Positions 22,608 to 27,758 of a DNA stretch of 64,000 nt are shown here, piece after piece. The DNA lies in NCBI RefSeq assembly GCF_000816845.1, contig NZ_CP006877.1, positions 1,245,501 through 1,309,500 on the forward strand, written 5' to 3'. Both the position numbers and the translations under genes were made by a program. Position 1 is the first letter of the stretch. Every line of letters begins with the position of its first letter. The notes under the pieces are model-generated. The model was not told the origin of the DNA. It made no database searches and worked only from the letters and a program-made list of their open reading frames with translations. Source of the DNA: Rhizobium gallicum bv. gallicum R602sp (GTDB lineage: Bacteria > Pseudomonadota > Alphaproteobacteria > Rhizobiales > Rhizobiaceae).

Positions 22608-23570
22608 ATGAACTCTCCTGTTGGCGCCAGCCGACAATCCTGGTTCGGGCGCAATCGCATGACACTGCTGACGGTCGTAATCGTCGCAGCCTATGCATCT
22701 TTCATCGAGTGGTTCTGGGGATGGTCGGCCATCATCGCCCAATGGGCGGCCGTCGGCGTGATGCCGATCCTTGTCGCTCTTGCATTATTGACCAGTACCT
22801 ATTTCCTGCGGACGTGGCGTATTCTCGATTACTTCCCGCGGGAGACGGCGGGCAGTTTCGGCACGCTTTTCCGGGTGACGCAGGTCCATAACCTGCTCAA
22901 TATCATGATGCCGTTTCGCACCGGGGAGACGAGCTTTCCGGTTCTCATGCGCGCAGAATTCGGCATTGCGTTGACGCGGGCAACCTCTGCCCTGCTTGTC
23001 ATGCGTCTCCTCGATCTGCACGCGCTGCTTGCCGCAGCCGGCATCGGATTTGCGGCAGCTTCCCCGAACGCCGTTCCGGCCTGGTTTTTATGGGCCGCAT
23101 TCCTGTTCTTGCCGATCACCGCTTTCCTGATCCGCAAGCCATTGCTTCGCTTGGGCTTCCGGCTCTTTCCCGCCAAGGCGCAAGGCTTCCTGTCGGAGAT
23201 CGAAAACGGCCTGCCCGCAAATGCCTCAGCCTTCGCACGGGCCTGGGCCATGACGGCGGTGAACTGGCTGGTGAAGGTCGTCGTGCTCGCCTGGGCGCTC
23301 AGCCTCATGGGCGTTTGGCCACTCACGGCGAGCTTCGGCGGCGCGCTCGGCGGCGAGCTTTCGTCGGTTCTGCCGGTCCATGCGCCGGGCGGCGTTGGCA
23401 CCTATCCCGCCGGCATTACCGCAGGCGCCATTGCCTTGGGCGCACCGGGCGGAAAGGCGGCGCTTGCAGCCCTGGCGCAGGCAAGCATCAACGCACATCT
23501 GTTGATCATCGTCTCCGCCTTGACGGGAACAGCAATCTCACTGCCCCTCGGGCGCCGCCGTCAGCTCTGA
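22608..23570 (+). CDS. Flippase-like membrane protein (lysylphosphatidylglycerol synthase TM family, UPF0104)
   Basis: A 320-residue protein with about eight membrane spans. AGGAAG precedes the ATG at 22608. The motif VHNLLNIMMPFRTGETSFPVL, with the MMPFRxGE core, and GGELSSVLPVHAPGGVGTYPAG are typical of the LPG-synthase transmembrane/UPF0104 family, members of which are thought to flip lipids or lipid-linked sugars. It is divergent from the GT2 gene across 74 bp. A role in moving the polyprenyl-phosphate sugar across the inner membrane is an attractive inference. The 3' end overlaps the convergent sigma factor gene by 33 bp. Confidence 0.82.
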   Translation: MNSPVGASRQSWFGRNRMTLLTVVIVAAYASFIEWFWGWSAIIAQWAAVGVMPILVALALLTSTYFLRTWRILDYFPRETAGSFGTLFRVTQVHNLLNIMMPFRTGETSFPVLMRAEFGIALTRATSALLVMRLLDLHALLAAAGIGFAAASPNAVPAWFLWAAFLFLPITAFLIRKPLLRLGFRLFPAKAQGFLSEIENGLPANASAFARAWAMTAVNWLVKVVVLAWALSLMGVWPLTASFGGALGGELSSVLPVHAPGGVGTYPAGITAGAIALGAPGGKAALAALAQASINAHLLIIVSALTGTAISLPLGRRRQL

Positions 23571-24782
23571 TATCCTCTTGCGCAGGAAAGCCAGCTCGGG
23601 CCCCTGCTGACAAAGGGACAGCGCGCGTTCATAGGCGGTGATCGCCTCCGCCGGTCGGCCGAGCTGGCGCAGGAAATCGGCGCGTGCGGCATGGGCAAGG
23701 TGATAGGTGCCGAGCTTTCCGGATGCCAGGATGCCGTCGATGATCTCAAGCCCTCTCTGCGGCCCTTCCGACATTGCGATCGCCACTGCGCGATTGAGTT
23801 CGACGATCGGCGAGGGCTGCGCCGTAATCAGCAGATCGTAATAGGCAGCGATGCGCGGCCAATCCGTTGCCTGCGGCGTTGCGGCCTTGGCATGTTCGGC
23901 GGCGATGGCGGCCTGGACAGTGTAGAGGCCGACCTCGCTAGGTTCCATCGCCCGCTGCAAAAGGTCCAGGCCTTCTTCTATCTTCCTGCGATCCCAGGTC
24001 GATCGGTCCTGCTCTGCAAGCAGGGTCAAGCTGCGGTCCTCAGCGCAGCGCGCCAGCCCGCGAGAGTCCTGCAGCAGCATCAGCGCCAGCAGGCCCTCGA
24101 CATCGGGGTGCGGCAGTAAGTCCGCCACCAGCCGCGCCAGCCGGATCGCCTCGGCCGTCAGGTCCGCCCGTACCACTTCTGTGCCCCAAGAAGCCGAATA
24201 CCCTTCGTTGAAGACGAGGTAGATGACGTGTAGCACGCGATCGAGGCGCTCCGGCAGTTCGTCGAGGTCCGGAACTTCGTACGGGATGCGGTCGGAACGT
24301 ATCTTGATCTTTGCCCGCACGATCCGCTGTGCGACGGTCGGGGCCGGAACGAGGAATGCGTGGGCGATTTCCTCGGTCGTCAGGCCGCAGACTTCGCGCA
24401 GCGCCATTGCCATCTGCGCGTCGGATGGAATGGCCGGATGGCAGCAGGTGAAGATCAGCCGCAGCATGTCGTCGCCGATAAGCTCCATGTCGCCGATCTC
24501 GGTAGCGTCGGCCTCGCCGTATAGGCTGTCCTCGATGTCTTTTAGCGACGCATCGAAGCGCGAACGCCGCCGGATATGGTCGATTGCCTTGTGGCGGCCG
24601 GTGGAAACGAGCCATGAAAAAGGATTGCCGGGAACGCCATCGCGTGGCCATGCGCGCGCGGCCGCCGCAAAAGCGTCGTGCAGGGCCTCCTCCGCCCGGT
24701 CGAAATCGCCGAGCAGGCGGATGAGAGTTGCCAGCACCCGTCTCGATTGCGACCGGTAGATGTCCTCGATCAGTTTCTCCAA
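23538..24782 (-). CDS. ECF42-type RNA polymerase sigma factor with C-terminal TPR-like extension
   Basis: A 414-residue sigma factor, more than twice the normal ECF length. Sigma-2 occupies residues 1-75 (SRRVLATLIRLLGDFDRAEEALHDAF, then PFSWLVSTGRHKAIDHIRR). Sigma-4 occupies about 110-165 (MALREVCGLTTEEIAHAFL, then VPAPTVAQRIVRAKIKI). From residue 175 on there is a DUF6596/TPR-like domain (ELNRAVAIAMSEGPQRGLEIID, AITAYERALSLC). This architecture and the adjacent DGPF genes are diagnostic of group ECF42, which has no cognate anti-sigma factor. The start is TTG at 24782 with CCGGAG upstream; it overlaps the frameshifted end of the DGPF gene. It is the last gene of a four-gene operon. Confidence 0.92.
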   Translation of the reverse strand: MEKLIEDIYRSQSRRVLATLIRLLGDFDRAEEALHDAFAAAARAWPRDGVPGNPFSWLVSTGRHKAIDHIRRRSRFDASLKDIEDSLYGEADATEIGDMELIGDDMLRLIFTCCHPAIPSDAQMAMALREVCGLTTEEIAHAFLVPAPTVAQRIVRAKIKIRSDRIPYEVPDLDELPERLDRVLHVIYLVFNEGYSASWGTEVVRADLTAEAIRLARLVADLLPHPDVEGLLALMLLQDSRGLARCAEDRSLTLLAEQDRSTWDRRKIEEGLDLLQRAMEPSEVGLYTVQAAIAAEHAKAATPQATDWPRIAAYYDLLITAQPSPIVELNRAVAIAMSEGPQRGLEIIDGILASGKLGTYHLAHAARADFLRQLGRPAEAITAYERALSLCQQGPELAFLRKRISELTAAPEGQ

Positions 24783-25147
24783 ATGCTACTCCGGTAAAGT
24801 GAGTATCCGCACCGAACGCAGCTCCACGGCGCGCCGACACGTGCGGAGGGGATGCGTGCGGCAATCTCCTTCGCCGCTGCATCGTCCGGTGCTTGGATCA
24901 CGTAGAAACCCGCAAGATGCTCCTTGGTTTCGACATAAGGCCCATCGCTCGCCTGCAGTGCATTGTTGCGGACCCGCAGCACGGTTGCTTTCTCCGGCAT
25001 TTCAAGCGCATCGGAGTGGATCATGATGCCGTTGCGGCGCAGCCCTTCGTCGAAGCTGAAATGCGCTCTGACGCGTTCGCCAGTCTCCCTCGGCGTCAGC
25101 GTGCGGTCAACGTCTGCGGAATTGTAGATCAGGCAAAGATAACGCAT
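24770..25147 (-). CDS. DGPF/YCII-related protein 1, frameshifted near its 3' end
   Basis: A DGPF-domain protein (PF03795, YCII-like) of 125 residues as read. The core is normal: MRYLCLIYNSADVDR, then LQASDGPYVETKEHLAGFYVIQAPD and IAARIPSARVG (to residue 105). After that the family's ending is lost. Shifting the frame at GGCGCGCC (24828-24835) restores AVELRSVRILTLPE and a TAG at 24786-24788, which aligns with the endings of the two paralogs next door (ASVEIRPAY and GSIEVRPVY). The change equals a 2-bp GC insertion. Either the gene is mutated or the base calls are wrong. The intact form would be 119 residues and would end just before the sigma factor start. Biochemical function is unknown for the family. 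Confidence 0.85.
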   Translation of the reverse strand: MRYLCLIYNSADVDRTLTPRETGERVRAHFSFDEGLRRNGIMIHSDALEMPEKATVLRVRNNALQASDGPYVETKEHLAGFYVIQAPDDAAAKEIAARIPSARVGAPWSCVRCGYSLYRSSIWRN

Positions 25148-25151
25148 CGAC

Positions 25152-25511
25152 CTACTCTGCGCCTTTGATGGAATAGGCAGGGCGGATCTCGACAGAGGCA
25201 TATTTCAGGATCGGGAAGGTCGAAACGATCGATTTCGCTTCATCCATGTCTCTGGCATCGAGCAATACGAAGCCGCCGAGGTGCTCCTTGATTTCTGCGA
25301 AAGGACCATCGGTGGCAACCGTCGTGCCCTTGCGGATGTGCAGGGTGACGGCTGACGCCGGCTCGCGCAGCGCAAGCGCAACCTGGAGGAAACCGCGCTC
25401 GCGCCAGAGATCGTCACTGACGATGCATTCCTGGGTCAGCGCCTCCCATTCTTCCTGCGGAACCAGCTTGCTTTTTTCGGTATCGAACCAGACCTGGCAA
25501 AGAAATTTCAT
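25152..25511 (-). CDS. DGPF/YCII-related protein 2
   Basis: A complete 119-residue DGPF-domain protein. The ATG at 25511 begins MKFLCQVWFDTEKS, like its neighbour's MKYLCQVWFEPS. The signature TVATDGPFAEIKEHLGGFVLLDARDMDEA contains the DGPF tetrad that names the family. It ends SVEIRPAYSIKGAE. Only 4 bp separate it from DGPF 1 and 11 bp from DGPF 3, so the genes form an operon with the ECF42 sigma factor. The dimeric alpha-beta barrel-like fold suggests small-molecule or redox chemistry, but no substrate is known. Confidence 0.93.
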   Translation of the reverse strand: MKFLCQVWFDTEKSKLVPQEEWEALTQECIVSDDLWRERGFLQVALALREPASAVTLHIRKGTTVATDGPFAEIKEHLGGFVLLDARDMDEAKSIVSTFPILKYASVEIRPAYSIKGAE

Positions 25512-25522
25512 GGCGTGCTTCC

Positions 25523-25873
25523 TCAGCCGAACGTGTAGACAGGACGGACTTCAATGCTGCCGAGCTTTGCCAGTGGAATGCCGGCTGCGACACGGATCGC
25601 ATCATTCAGATCGCTGGCCTCGATCAGGATGAAGCCGCCGAGTTGTTCCTTCGTCTCGGCATAGGGGCCATCTGTCACCGACACCTCACCATTGCGGACA
25701 CGGATGGTGACTGCACTTTTCGGCGATTGTAGAGCCTCGGCGTGGATCATGTGGCCGCTTTCGACGAGGTCCTCATCATAACCGAGCGAATCCCTGTCGA
25801 GCTTCTTCCTCTCCTCGTTCCTCATGCGCTCGAGCACGGATGGCTCGAACCACACCTGACACAGATATTTCAT
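25523..25873 (-). CDS. DGPF/YCII-related protein 3, first gene of the ECF42 operon
   Basis: A 116-residue DGPF-domain protein. The ATG at 25873 was chosen because it aligns with the start of the paralog; the open frame runs 68 codons further up across the promoter. Key segments are MKYLCQVWFEPSVLERM, SVTDGPYAETKEQLGGFILIEASDL and the ending LGSIEVRPVYTFG. It opens the operon DGPF3-DGPF2-DGPF1-sigma. A TGTCGA-N17-CGTC element 37-63 bp upstream of its start codon fits an ECF42-dependent promoter, so the operon is probably autoregulated by its own sigma factor. Confidence 0.93.
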   Translation of the reverse strand: MKYLCQVWFEPSVLERMRNEERKKLDRDSLGYDEDLVESGHMIHAEALQSPKSAVTIRVRNGEVSVTDGPYAETKEQLGGFILIEASDLNDAIRVAAGIPLAKLGSIEVRPVYTFG

Positions 25874-25909: not shown

Positions 25910-25936
25910 GACGAAGAGACTAGGCTGAATTCGACA
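25910..25936 (-). promoter_or_regulatory. ECF42-type promoter of the DGPF-sigma operon
   Basis: On the minus strand TGTCGA (25936-25931) is followed by exactly 17 nt and CGTC (25913-25910). This matches the ECF42 consensus as I recall it from work on Streptomyces venezuelae, TGTCGA at -35 and CG(A/T)C at -10. Transcription should start near 25903 and leave a leader of about 30 nt before the ATG at 25873. Confidence 0.75.
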
Positions 25937-25965
25937 GCAAAGAAAAAAATTTTGTTCGCCCGGAC

Positions 25966-25992
25966 TGTCGAAATCAGCGGCGCGCATTCGAC
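25966..25992 (+). promoter_or_regulatory. Divergent ECF42-type promoter-like element facing the small membrane protein gene
   Basis: On the plus strand TGTCGA (25966-25971) is followed by 17 nt and CGAC (25989-25992). A start near 26000 would precede the Shine-Dalgarno GGAG (26016-26019) and the ATG at 26028 of the small membrane protein. Spacing is identical to the two copies facing the DGPF operon. Confidence 0.6.
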
Positions 25993-25993
25993 A
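25967..25993 (-). promoter_or_regulatory. Second, upstream ECF42-type promoter-like element
   Basis: A second minus-strand copy, TGTCGA (25993-25988), 17-nt spacer, CGAC (25970-25967), lies 57 bp upstream of the first. It shares its boxes with the plus-strand element, because TGTCGA-N16-TCGACA is an inverted repeat. It may be a second start site for the operon or simply the mirror of the divergent promoter. Confidence 0.5.
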
Positions 25994-26027
25994 AAGCTCC
26001 ATCGATAACATTGAAGGAGTGAAGGAC

Positions 26028-26246
26028 ATGGGAGTTCTGGAAGTCGCCATTGCAAGCCTCATCTGGGCGCGCCGCACGGAGCAGCCTCGCGATGAGCTTT
26101 ACGGCACAGATATTGGCCAGTTTCTTGGGCGGATGGTGGTTGCCTTTGCGGTGTTTGCAGCGGTCATCACAGGACTGCAGATTGCGGCCGCACGCCATGA
26201 CGACCCGCAAATGGTTGCGGATAGCGCGGTGGCAGAAGCGAATTGA
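26028..26246 (+). CDS. Small single-span membrane protein, candidate ECF42 regulon member
   Basis: A 72-residue protein of no family I recognise. The ATG at 26028 has GGAG at 8 nt; the GTG at 26019 in the same frame overlaps that Shine-Dalgarno and is less likely. Residues 1-32 are polar with charged clusters (WARRTEQPRDELYG). Residues about 33-56 form one membrane span (GRMVVAFAVFAAVITGLQIA). A short acidic tail follows. It is divergent from the DGPF-sigma operon and has its own TGTCGA-N17-CGAC element, so it is probably co-regulated with it. It ends 6 bp before the end of the convergent amn gene. That it is expressed is inferred from the ribosome binding site and promoter. Confidence 0.65.
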   Translation: MGVLEVAIASLIWARRTEQPRDELYGTDIGQFLGRMVVAFAVFAAVITGLQIAAARHDDPQMVADSAVAEAN

Positions 26247-26252
26247 AACGGC

Positions 26253-27758
26253 CTACTGGAAGGCCGTCTCGAAGAAGCTGCGAAGCTTGCGGGAATGCAG
26301 TGCCTCCGGCGGCATTGCCGCAAGCTTCTGGATGGCGCGGATGCCGATCTGCAGGTGCTGGTTGACCTGTGTTCGATAGAATGCAGTCGCCATGCCCGGC
26401 AGTTTCAGCTCGCCATGCAGCGGCTTGTCGGAAACGCAAAGAAGCGTGCCGTAGGGCACACGGAAGCGGAAGCCGTTGGCCGCGATCGTTGCCGATTCCA
26501 TGTCGAGCGCGATGGCACGCGCCTGGGAGAGCCGCTTCACAGGGCCGCGCTGGTCGCGTAGTTCCCAGTTGCGGTTGTCGATCGTACCGACGGTGCCGGT
26601 GCGCATGATGCGCTTCAGCTCGAAGCCTTCGTAGCCGGTGATTTCGGCGACGGCTGCTTCCAGCGCCACCTGCACTTCGGCAAGCGCGGGGATCGGCACC
26701 CAGACCGGTAGGTCGTCGTCGAGAACATGATCCTCGCGCATATAGGCGTGCGCCAGGACATAGTCGCCGAGTCGCTGGCTGTTGCGCAACCCGGCGCAGT
26801 GGCCAAGCATCAGCCAGGCATGTGGGCGCAGGACGGCCACGTGGTCGGTGATCGTCTTTGCGTTGGAGGGACCGACGCCGATATTGATCATGGTGATCCC
26901 TGCATGGCCCTTTTTCTTCAGGTGATAAGCAGGCATCTGCGGCAAGCGCGGGGCCGTGGCATCGGTTTCCGGCTGGCACGATCCGGCGTGAGTGATGATG
27001 TTGCCCGGCTCGACGAAGGCCGTATAACCGTCTTCGCCGCCGCCCTTGGCTATCGTCGCGCGCGCCCAGGCGCAGAACTCGTCCATATAGAACTGGTAAT
27101 TCGTGAAAAGCACGAAATTCTGGAAGTGCTGCGCGCTCGTTGCTGTGTAGTGGGCAAGGCGGGCGAGCGAATAATCGGTGCGCTGCGCCGTGAAAGCGGC
27201 AAGCGGCGAGGGCTCGCCCGGCGGCGGGATATATTCTCCGTTGGCGATCTCGTCGTCGGTCGTATTGAGGTCCGGGGTGTCGAAGAGGTCGCGCATCGGG
27301 ATGTCGATGAAGGTCGAGGCGGACGCTTCGACATGCGCGCCCTCGCCGAAGGCGAAATGCAAAGGGATCGGTGTCGAGGACTCGGACACGACGATCGGAA
27401 CGTTATGGCTCCTCATCAAGAGCGCCAGCTGTTCCTTCAGGTAGTGACGGAAAAGCTTCGGCCGGGTGACGGTCGTCGTATAGACGCCCGGGGCCGTCAC
27501 ATGCCCGTAGGAGAGGCGGGAGTCGACATGCCCGAAGCTGGTAGTCTCGATGCTGACCTGAGGGTAGAAGGCGCGGTAGCGCGAGGTAATCGGTGCGCCC
27601 TTGGCAAGCTCCGAAAAACTGTCGATCAGGAAGGTGGTATTGCGTTCGTAAAGCGCAGTCAGCGCATCGACGGCCTGCGCTGGATCATCGAAGCTTTGCG
27701 GTTCAAAAGCAGGTGGCGAGGAAATATCAAGAGGTAATGGAGAGATTCGTTTGCTCAT
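26253..27758 (-). CDS. amn: AMP nucleosidase
   Basis: A 501-residue cytoplasmic enzyme that splits AMP into adenine and ribose 5-phosphate and so adjusts the adenylate pool. Length and both parts match E. coli Amn: an N-terminal regulatory domain (VDALTALYERNTTFLIDSFSELAKG) and a C-terminal nucleoside-phosphorylase-like catalytic domain (AGITMINIGVGPSNAKTITDHVAVLRP, LDMESATIAANGFRFRVPYGTLLCVSDKPLHGE). The DMESA motif holds the ribose contact. The ATG at 27758 is clear. The gene is alone; its end faces the small membrane protein gene. Confidence 0.95.
   Translation of the reverse strand: MSKRISPLPLDISSPPAFEPQSFDDPAQAVDALTALYERNTTFLIDSFSELAKGAPITSRYRAFYPQVSIETTSFGHVDSRLSYGHVTAPGVYTTTVTRPKLFRHYLKEQLALLMRSHNVPIVVSESSTPIPLHFAFGEGAHVEASASTFIDIPMRDLFDTPDLNTTDDEIANGEYIPPPGEPSPLAAFTAQRTDYSLARLAHYTATSAQHFQNFVLFTNYQFYMDEFCAWARATIAKGGGEDGYTAFVEPGNIITHAGSCQPETDATAPRLPQMPAYHLKKKGHAGITMINIGVGPSNAKTITDHVAVLRPHAWLMLGHCAGLRNSQRLGDYVLAHAYMREDHVLDDDLPVWVPIPALAEVQVALEAAVAEITGYEGFELKRIMRTGTVGTIDNRNWELRDQRGPVKRLSQARAIALDMESATIAANGFRFRVPYGTLLCVSDKPLHGELKLPGMATAFYRTQVNQHLQIGIRAIQKLAAMPPEALHSRKLRSFFETAFQ

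Follow-up and report, generated by a model that had tools for sequence, protein, structure and literature searches.

This locus, part of a 64-kb window (by which we mean the whole stretch of DNA analysed) in a genome of 7.31 Mb and 4 contigs, is most likely a divergent ECF42 regulon unit: one ECF42-type promoter would serve three DGPF genes and the sigma factor gene behind them, and a second promoter of the same type, facing the other way, would serve the gene for a small membrane protein. The pairing of such a gene with an ECF42 operon is previously undescribed; searches of an open-access library, on bidirectional or palindromic ECF promoters and on ECF sigmas with small membrane proteins, brought up no title or abstract that describes it. 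Three YCII/DGPF genes, recognized by family scan, lie on the minus strand at 25523..25873, 25152..25511 and 24770..25147 (the last scanned as 24770-25144, its start one codon short), and the third overlaps the TTG start of the gene for an ECF42-like sigma factor of 414 aa (23538..24782, minus strand). Motif search and conservation place the predicted proximal promoter of this operon, P2 (TGTCGA-N17-CGTC), at 25936-25910 on the minus strand, and the predicted promoter of the small gene, the ‘plus site’ (TGTCGA-N17-CGAC), at 25966-25992 on the plus strand. The spacer between their -35 elements (25937..25965) contains an A/T tract at 25943-25953. The plus site is also one reading of a palindrome, the other being a distal minus site at 25993-25967. 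Downstream on the plus strand come a Shine-Dalgarno sequence, GGAG (26016-26019), and the ORF for a predicted single-span membrane protein of 72 aa (26028..26246). An AMP nucleosidase gene converges on this ORF, tail to tail across a gap of 6 bp, and, unless terminated, a transcript of the small gene would read antisense into it across 26246-26253.

The sigma factor has, of the sigma regions, region 2 and region 4_2 only, as befits an ECF protein (PF04542 and PF08281, both above cut-off). It goes on with the TPR-containing extension of about 200 residues that marks the ECF42 group—DUF6596 at 179-279 and TPR at 363-399—and its neighbors include the YCII/DGPF genes, three of them, usual for that group. 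The earlier note took this for a DGPF-sigma operon of ECF42 type, and these features bear it out. The sites also have the ECF42 form TGTCG(A/G)-N17-CG(T/A)C, which takes in the promoter consensus reported for S. venezuelae.

The TPR extension and the YCII/DGPF genes are shared with the systems of S. meliloti RpoE10, S. venezuelae Sven_0747 and P. putida ECF-10, and ECF42 sites have in common with P2 a TGTCG-type -35, N17 and a CGTC -10. What the present locus adds is a divergent small membrane-protein gene with a same-type site of its own, the -10 of which is CGAC, whereas the three RpoE10 sites listed in the available excerpts of the S. meliloti study are TGTCGG-N17-CGTC (PMC6180224). The same excerpts describe ECF42 sigmas as lacking an identifiable anti-sigma factor nearby, and RpoE10 as lacking an identified one. 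When overexpressed, RpoE10 raised glyoxylase-like and other genes, so ECF42 targets are not DGPF genes alone, contrary to what the earlier note supposed; the YCII gene upstream of RpoE10 itself showed no increase, and autoregulation is thus not universal in the group, as far as that excerpted account goes (PMC6180224).

The three sites match TGTCGA-N17-CGWC exactly, each with the spacing of 17 that had been claimed for it, and all lie inside 84 bp. With spacing relaxed to N16-18, the motif occurs ten times in the window, three of them here, against a mean of 1.58 and a maximum of 5 in 100 shuffles of the window. The palindrome was likewise found as claimed, TGTCGA-N16-TCGACA: when spacings of N14-18 are allowed it is present once in the window, at 25966-25993, where 0.02 occurrences would be expected and 2 of 100 shuffles contained one. 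Genome-wide the loose N16-18 motif has 419 matches on both strands of the 7.31 Mb (86 for the reversed-pattern control), and because of this a single loose-motif site is weak evidence. A tighter form, TGTCGAWW-N15-CGWC, has 13 matches (reversed control, 5). Three of these are the sites described here, the window's own distal minus reading among them since it, too, carries WW. Of the other ten, three precede a plausible target and form a candidate regulon of the tight ECF42 signature (L238, L248 and L249): they stand 22 nt before an alpha/beta hydrolase gene, 31 nt before a second YCII gene and 111 nt before a DUF899 gene, respectively, the first two also lying inside open frames of more than 120 codons. 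The remaining seven, all in long frames, are most likely chance matches in coding sequence.

Within the genus the arrangement accompanies the sigma factor closely. An orthologous sigma (at least 66% identity) is present in 79 of 90 same-genus genomes, our own included, and the 79 loci compared here are 78 fetched upstream regions together with the window, L147 and L148 being left out. The earlier note held that absence of the small frame and the plus-strand motif from orthologous loci would count against it. The small ORF is in fact present at all 78 readable loci (L126 is cut by a contig edge just after the ATG), and the plus site is exact at 70 of the 79 if N16 or N17 is allowed, 68 having N17, with three changes on the tree, a quick one of DGPF DNA in which 23 of 76 inner branches are unresolved. 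The nine loci with an inexact site (L070, L073-L078, L108 and L141) keep the ORF. Distances are close to fixed as well: the small gene starts 30-35 nt beyond the -10 in all 77 loci measured, and all 77 have an SD-like motif within 20 nt of the start, 62 of them at 6-8 nt. This set of 77 also supplied the proteins discussed below, and omits L126, for its contig end, and L141, where the start pattern was missed although the ORF is there. P2 is exact in 79/79 loci, 78 by site finder and L094 by direct reading of the sequence (its P2 state is left out of the tree and the -10 counts). The -10 is CGAC in 76/77 plus sites and CGTC in 77/78 copies of P2.

Between the -35 of P2 and that of the plus site lie 22-43 bp (28-34 bp in 74 of 77 loci), and in 76 of 77 this spacer contains a run of at least six A/T. 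This spacing and this run fit a back-to-back pair with a common upstream element, and the A/T spacer is possibly just that, an UP-like element that both promoters share. In two loci, L114 and L117, some 50-100 nt of extra sequence separates the first DGPF start codon from the promoter pair.

Approached from the other direction, a search with the small protein matched 52 of 150 genomes, all of the same genus. The earlier note had suggested a survey of rhizobial genomes for this gene next to ECF42-DGPF operons, and that is where it lies in all 52, beside the sigma gene (30 loci were read, our own included, and 22 judged by coordinates). In the 30 loci read it always has the AMP nucleosidase gene on one side and the DGPF genes on the other. 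A profile built from 20 of the proteins detects the gene in 27/27 tested same-genus genomes with a sigma ortholog and in 0/11 without one, though the 11 may share ancestry, and their lack of the gene may then represent few independent events.

Taken from the sites, the ORF, their conservation and co-occurrence, and the topology signal of the protein—all of them features legible in the sequence—the unit would work as follows. From P2 would come the transcript of the DGPF genes and the sigma gene behind them, and from the plus site that of the small gene, such that active sigma expresses both at once. We consider the small gene very likely to be a divergent target of the ECF42 sigma, and since it carries the same kind of promoter as the sigma operon, the two are probably switched on jointly. 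Its product would keep its basic N-terminus and a first helix in the cytoplasm, cross the membrane with a single helix and end in a short outer tail. Most likely located in the inner membrane, it would act there as a member of the sigma-induced response and possibly exert feedback on the sigma factor; an effector or feedback role is a guess on our part.

The small protein, with its single strongly hydrophobic stretch and good ribosome binding site, answers to the description given of it in advance. It belongs to no Pfam or NCBIfam family at cut-off and matches no PDB sequence. Searches of Pfam and NCBIfam returned no anti-sigma match, and it shows no similarity to known anti-sigma domains in Pfam or among PDB sequences. 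DUF2231, DUF6601, DUF1345 and Rv2732c were considered as its family and set aside, each scoring below cut-off with few members matching. Forty-seven database proteins match it, and those listed with an organism are from Rhizobium; most are named ‘hypothetical’, one ‘Transmembrane protein’, and one an antiporter, which we take to be an error. The nearest named relatives are in Rhizobium mongolense (86–89%), R. azibense (69%) and R. sullae (67–69%). Conservation is weak—identity to P0001 ranges from 18% to 50%, and a 20-row alignment has just two invariant columns, M1 and R35.

The best 19-residue hydropathy is at least 1.6 in 76 of the 77 proteins, and K and R are in excess on the N side of the span in 73 (in 58, counting 15-residue flanks only). 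About 34 residues precede the span. An AlphaFold model (mean pLDDT 70, pTM 0.38), confident mainly at residues 31-50, has helices at 3-16, 27-56 and 60-71. The topology is most likely a single span, N-in/C-out, and in prediction it agrees with that of a single-span anti-sigma factor. The gene has the signature of coding sequence: median dN/dS is 0.32, with values below 1 in 99.8% of 489 pairs, and third positions hold 48% of the differences among them; the pairs, like the 79 loci, are not independent of each other. Between the window and its nearest relative, L069, dN/dS is about 1.0, on few changes. Ten loci of one clade (L106, L107, L110 and L112-L118) encode a version of 54–55 aa that ends just past the span, and because homology runs past the stop codon in several of them, the outer tail seems dispensable there. 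Decay of the sigma factor in this clade was suspected from one internal stop listed for several of its sigmas, and was rejected: of ten sigma genes retrieved, six have the stop, each time at query position 410, close to where the protein normally ends, and the other four show no stop within the aligned part.

The palindrome needs separate consideration. It arises because the plus -10 reads TCGAC followed by A, the complement of which resembles a -35. With N17 spacing, the distal minus site is exact in 51 of the 79 loci, both readings in 48, the plus alone in 20, the minus alone in three and neither in eight. Allowing N16, which adds L094 and L109, the full minus site is found in 52, its state changing seven times on the tree, more than twice as often as that of the plus site. 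TGTCGAWW-N15-CGWC, counted without those two N16 loci, is present in 67/77 plus readings, 6/77 distal minus readings and 77/77 proximal ones. Set against this, every one of the 79 loci has A as third base of the plus -10, with no changes (P2 has T there, with one), and that A yields GTCGA on the other strand; the five-base core GTCGA-N17-CGWC survives in 71/77 minus readings and 76/77 plus readings. By these loss counts and the WW signature the plus reading is the best kept, and by the invariant A and the minus core two-way use is possible. The functional pair, as far as conservation can say, is most likely formed by P2 and the plus site, which face away from each other on either side of the A/T tract; the distal minus reading is probably a by-product or a weak extra promoter, and firing from it toward the operon may be secondary at most. 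The earlier description of the promoters as divergent fits, but conservation differs between the two minus sites.

Loci beyond the genus bear on the same question. At E 1e-110 the sigma factor was matched in 34 of 394 genomes of the family, eight of the same genus and 26 of others. We read 20 other-genus regions: 19 of the 26 upstream regions plus that of G193 (L199), which was picked through a match to the small-protein profile and is not an unbiased case. G387, G294, G445, G424, G269, G383 and G234 were left out, and one upstream sequence, L206, runs to 259 bases. Defined here as a -35 ending in A or G with N16-18, a plus site is present in eight of the 20 and absent from 12. In five it is followed by a small ORF whose product has a strongly hydrophobic stretch, starting 36 nt on in L198, 34 in L199, 35 in L200, 73 in L202 and 54 in L203; the search turned up no exact minus site in L199 or L203. 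The small-protein profile matches at three loci outside the genus, L198, L199 and L203. The ORFs of L200 and L202 resemble the small gene in position and hydrophobicity, a likeness short of homology. Weak matches to the small protein outside the genus (L159, L160, L161, L163 and L164; L165-L170 were left out of this check) have no DGPF or sigma gene beside them. In two loci of one genus, L213 and L217, a palindrome occupies the position of the DGPF promoter and is not followed by a small membrane ORF; in L213 there is, in addition, an overlapping TGTCGG-N16-CGTC site. Among nine regions from other families (L147, L148 and L231-L237), L147 alone has a plus site and palindrome. It keeps P2 as well, and the ORFs behind show no clear membrane span.

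Could the 28-bp palindrome be a true two-way ECF42 promoter, its half-sites doubling as -35 and -10 and its two directions mutually exclusive? We think this rather unlikely, although the invariant A and the well-kept minus core speak for it, and so do L217, where no DGPF-side site other than the palindrome was found, and L213, where it is the main one. Bidirectional promoters based on -10 symmetry, with steric exclusion, are known for sigma70 from the work of Warman, Grainger and colleagues, at least in the excerpts available (PMC12825309, PMC10268837), and the inverted symmetry they share with our palindrome could allow polymerase to bind both ways. The sigma70 promoters described there share a symmetric -10, whereas the palindrome has no such shared element: its symmetry is between -35 and -10, the roles of which would have to swap. 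The operon already has P2 to serve it, loss is commoner for the minus reading, which seldom has WW, none of the five other-genus loci that pair a plus site with a small TM ORF has a full palindrome, and palindromes turn up without such an ORF (L147, L213 and L217). The suggestion that this DNA reads as a promoter on both strands is weakened by all of this.

A different proposal concerns the protein: that it is a membrane-tethered regulator—a minimal anti-sigma factor or sensor partner—that binds the sigma factor or its TPR and supplies the signal input this lineage is missing. Minimal anti-sigma factors such as CnrY consist of a short cytoplasmic N-terminus and one membrane span, and the predicted small protein is built the same way; it differs in matching no Pfam or PDB sequence and in being encoded outside the sigma operon. 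Strict co-occurrence and the divergent arrangement with the sigma gene favor the proposal, as do the predicted N-in/C-out topology and cytoplasmic N-terminal helix, and according to a 2022 review, in the portion available, for most of the ECF42 C-terminal extension the partner ‘remains to be identified’ (PMC8999054). That review, though, points to involvement of the YCII protein (PMC8999054). The small protein resembles no described family, and its part ahead of the span is short, some 34 residues. Furthermore, 13 paralogous ECF42-DGPF regions within the genus (L218-L230, a hand-picked part of the whole) have no plus site, which also speaks for the reading preferred here, and ten of them have a minus site. 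The S. meliloti RpoE7 divergent unit, among the closest known systems, differs in belonging to another ECF group (ECF16), in having a presumptive anti-sigma factor in its operon, and in having four divergent genes, judging from the excerpts (PMC6180224). We regard a tethered regulator as doubtful, and as a general input for ECF42 the small protein cannot serve, since it is found only with this sigma lineage. Two proposals might hold jointly, the small protein being a sigma-controlled membrane partner of the ECF42 TPR and the invariant CGAC part of a two-way promoter in which the way the polymerase faces determines the ratio of operon to partner; this combination strikes us as more doubtful still.

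It is quite improbable that the small gene is transcribed from an ordinary promoter and that the plus site is there by chance, or as sequence inherited from a neighbor. The loose motif is admittedly common in the genome, as its excess over the control shows, but the plus site persists in most loci at a near-fixed distance from the start codon, and in L215 a different divergent gene, of the glyoxalase family (PF00903), stands 32 nt behind the same kind of site in place of the small membrane ORF. Least credible of all is a reading of the palindrome as an operator, bound by a dimeric repressor or activator and like a promoter only by accident: its inverted 6-bp arms are perfect in the window, but they are the -35 hexamer of P2 at the spacing of P2, the outer base has been lost separately on each side, and the genes scanned in the unit (YCII, sigma, AMP nucleosidase) include no DNA-binding regulator.

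Unless we misjudge the locus, then, the divergent ECF42 unit remains the reading to prefer, and it extends the candidate ECF42 regulon beyond soluble, enzyme-like proteins. A small protein encoded beside one ECF42 lineage, behind that lineage's own type of promoter, is also a concrete candidate for the partner of the TPR. Should it prove to be that partner, this lineage of ECF42 sigma factors would have both an input for signals from the envelope and a feedback loop.
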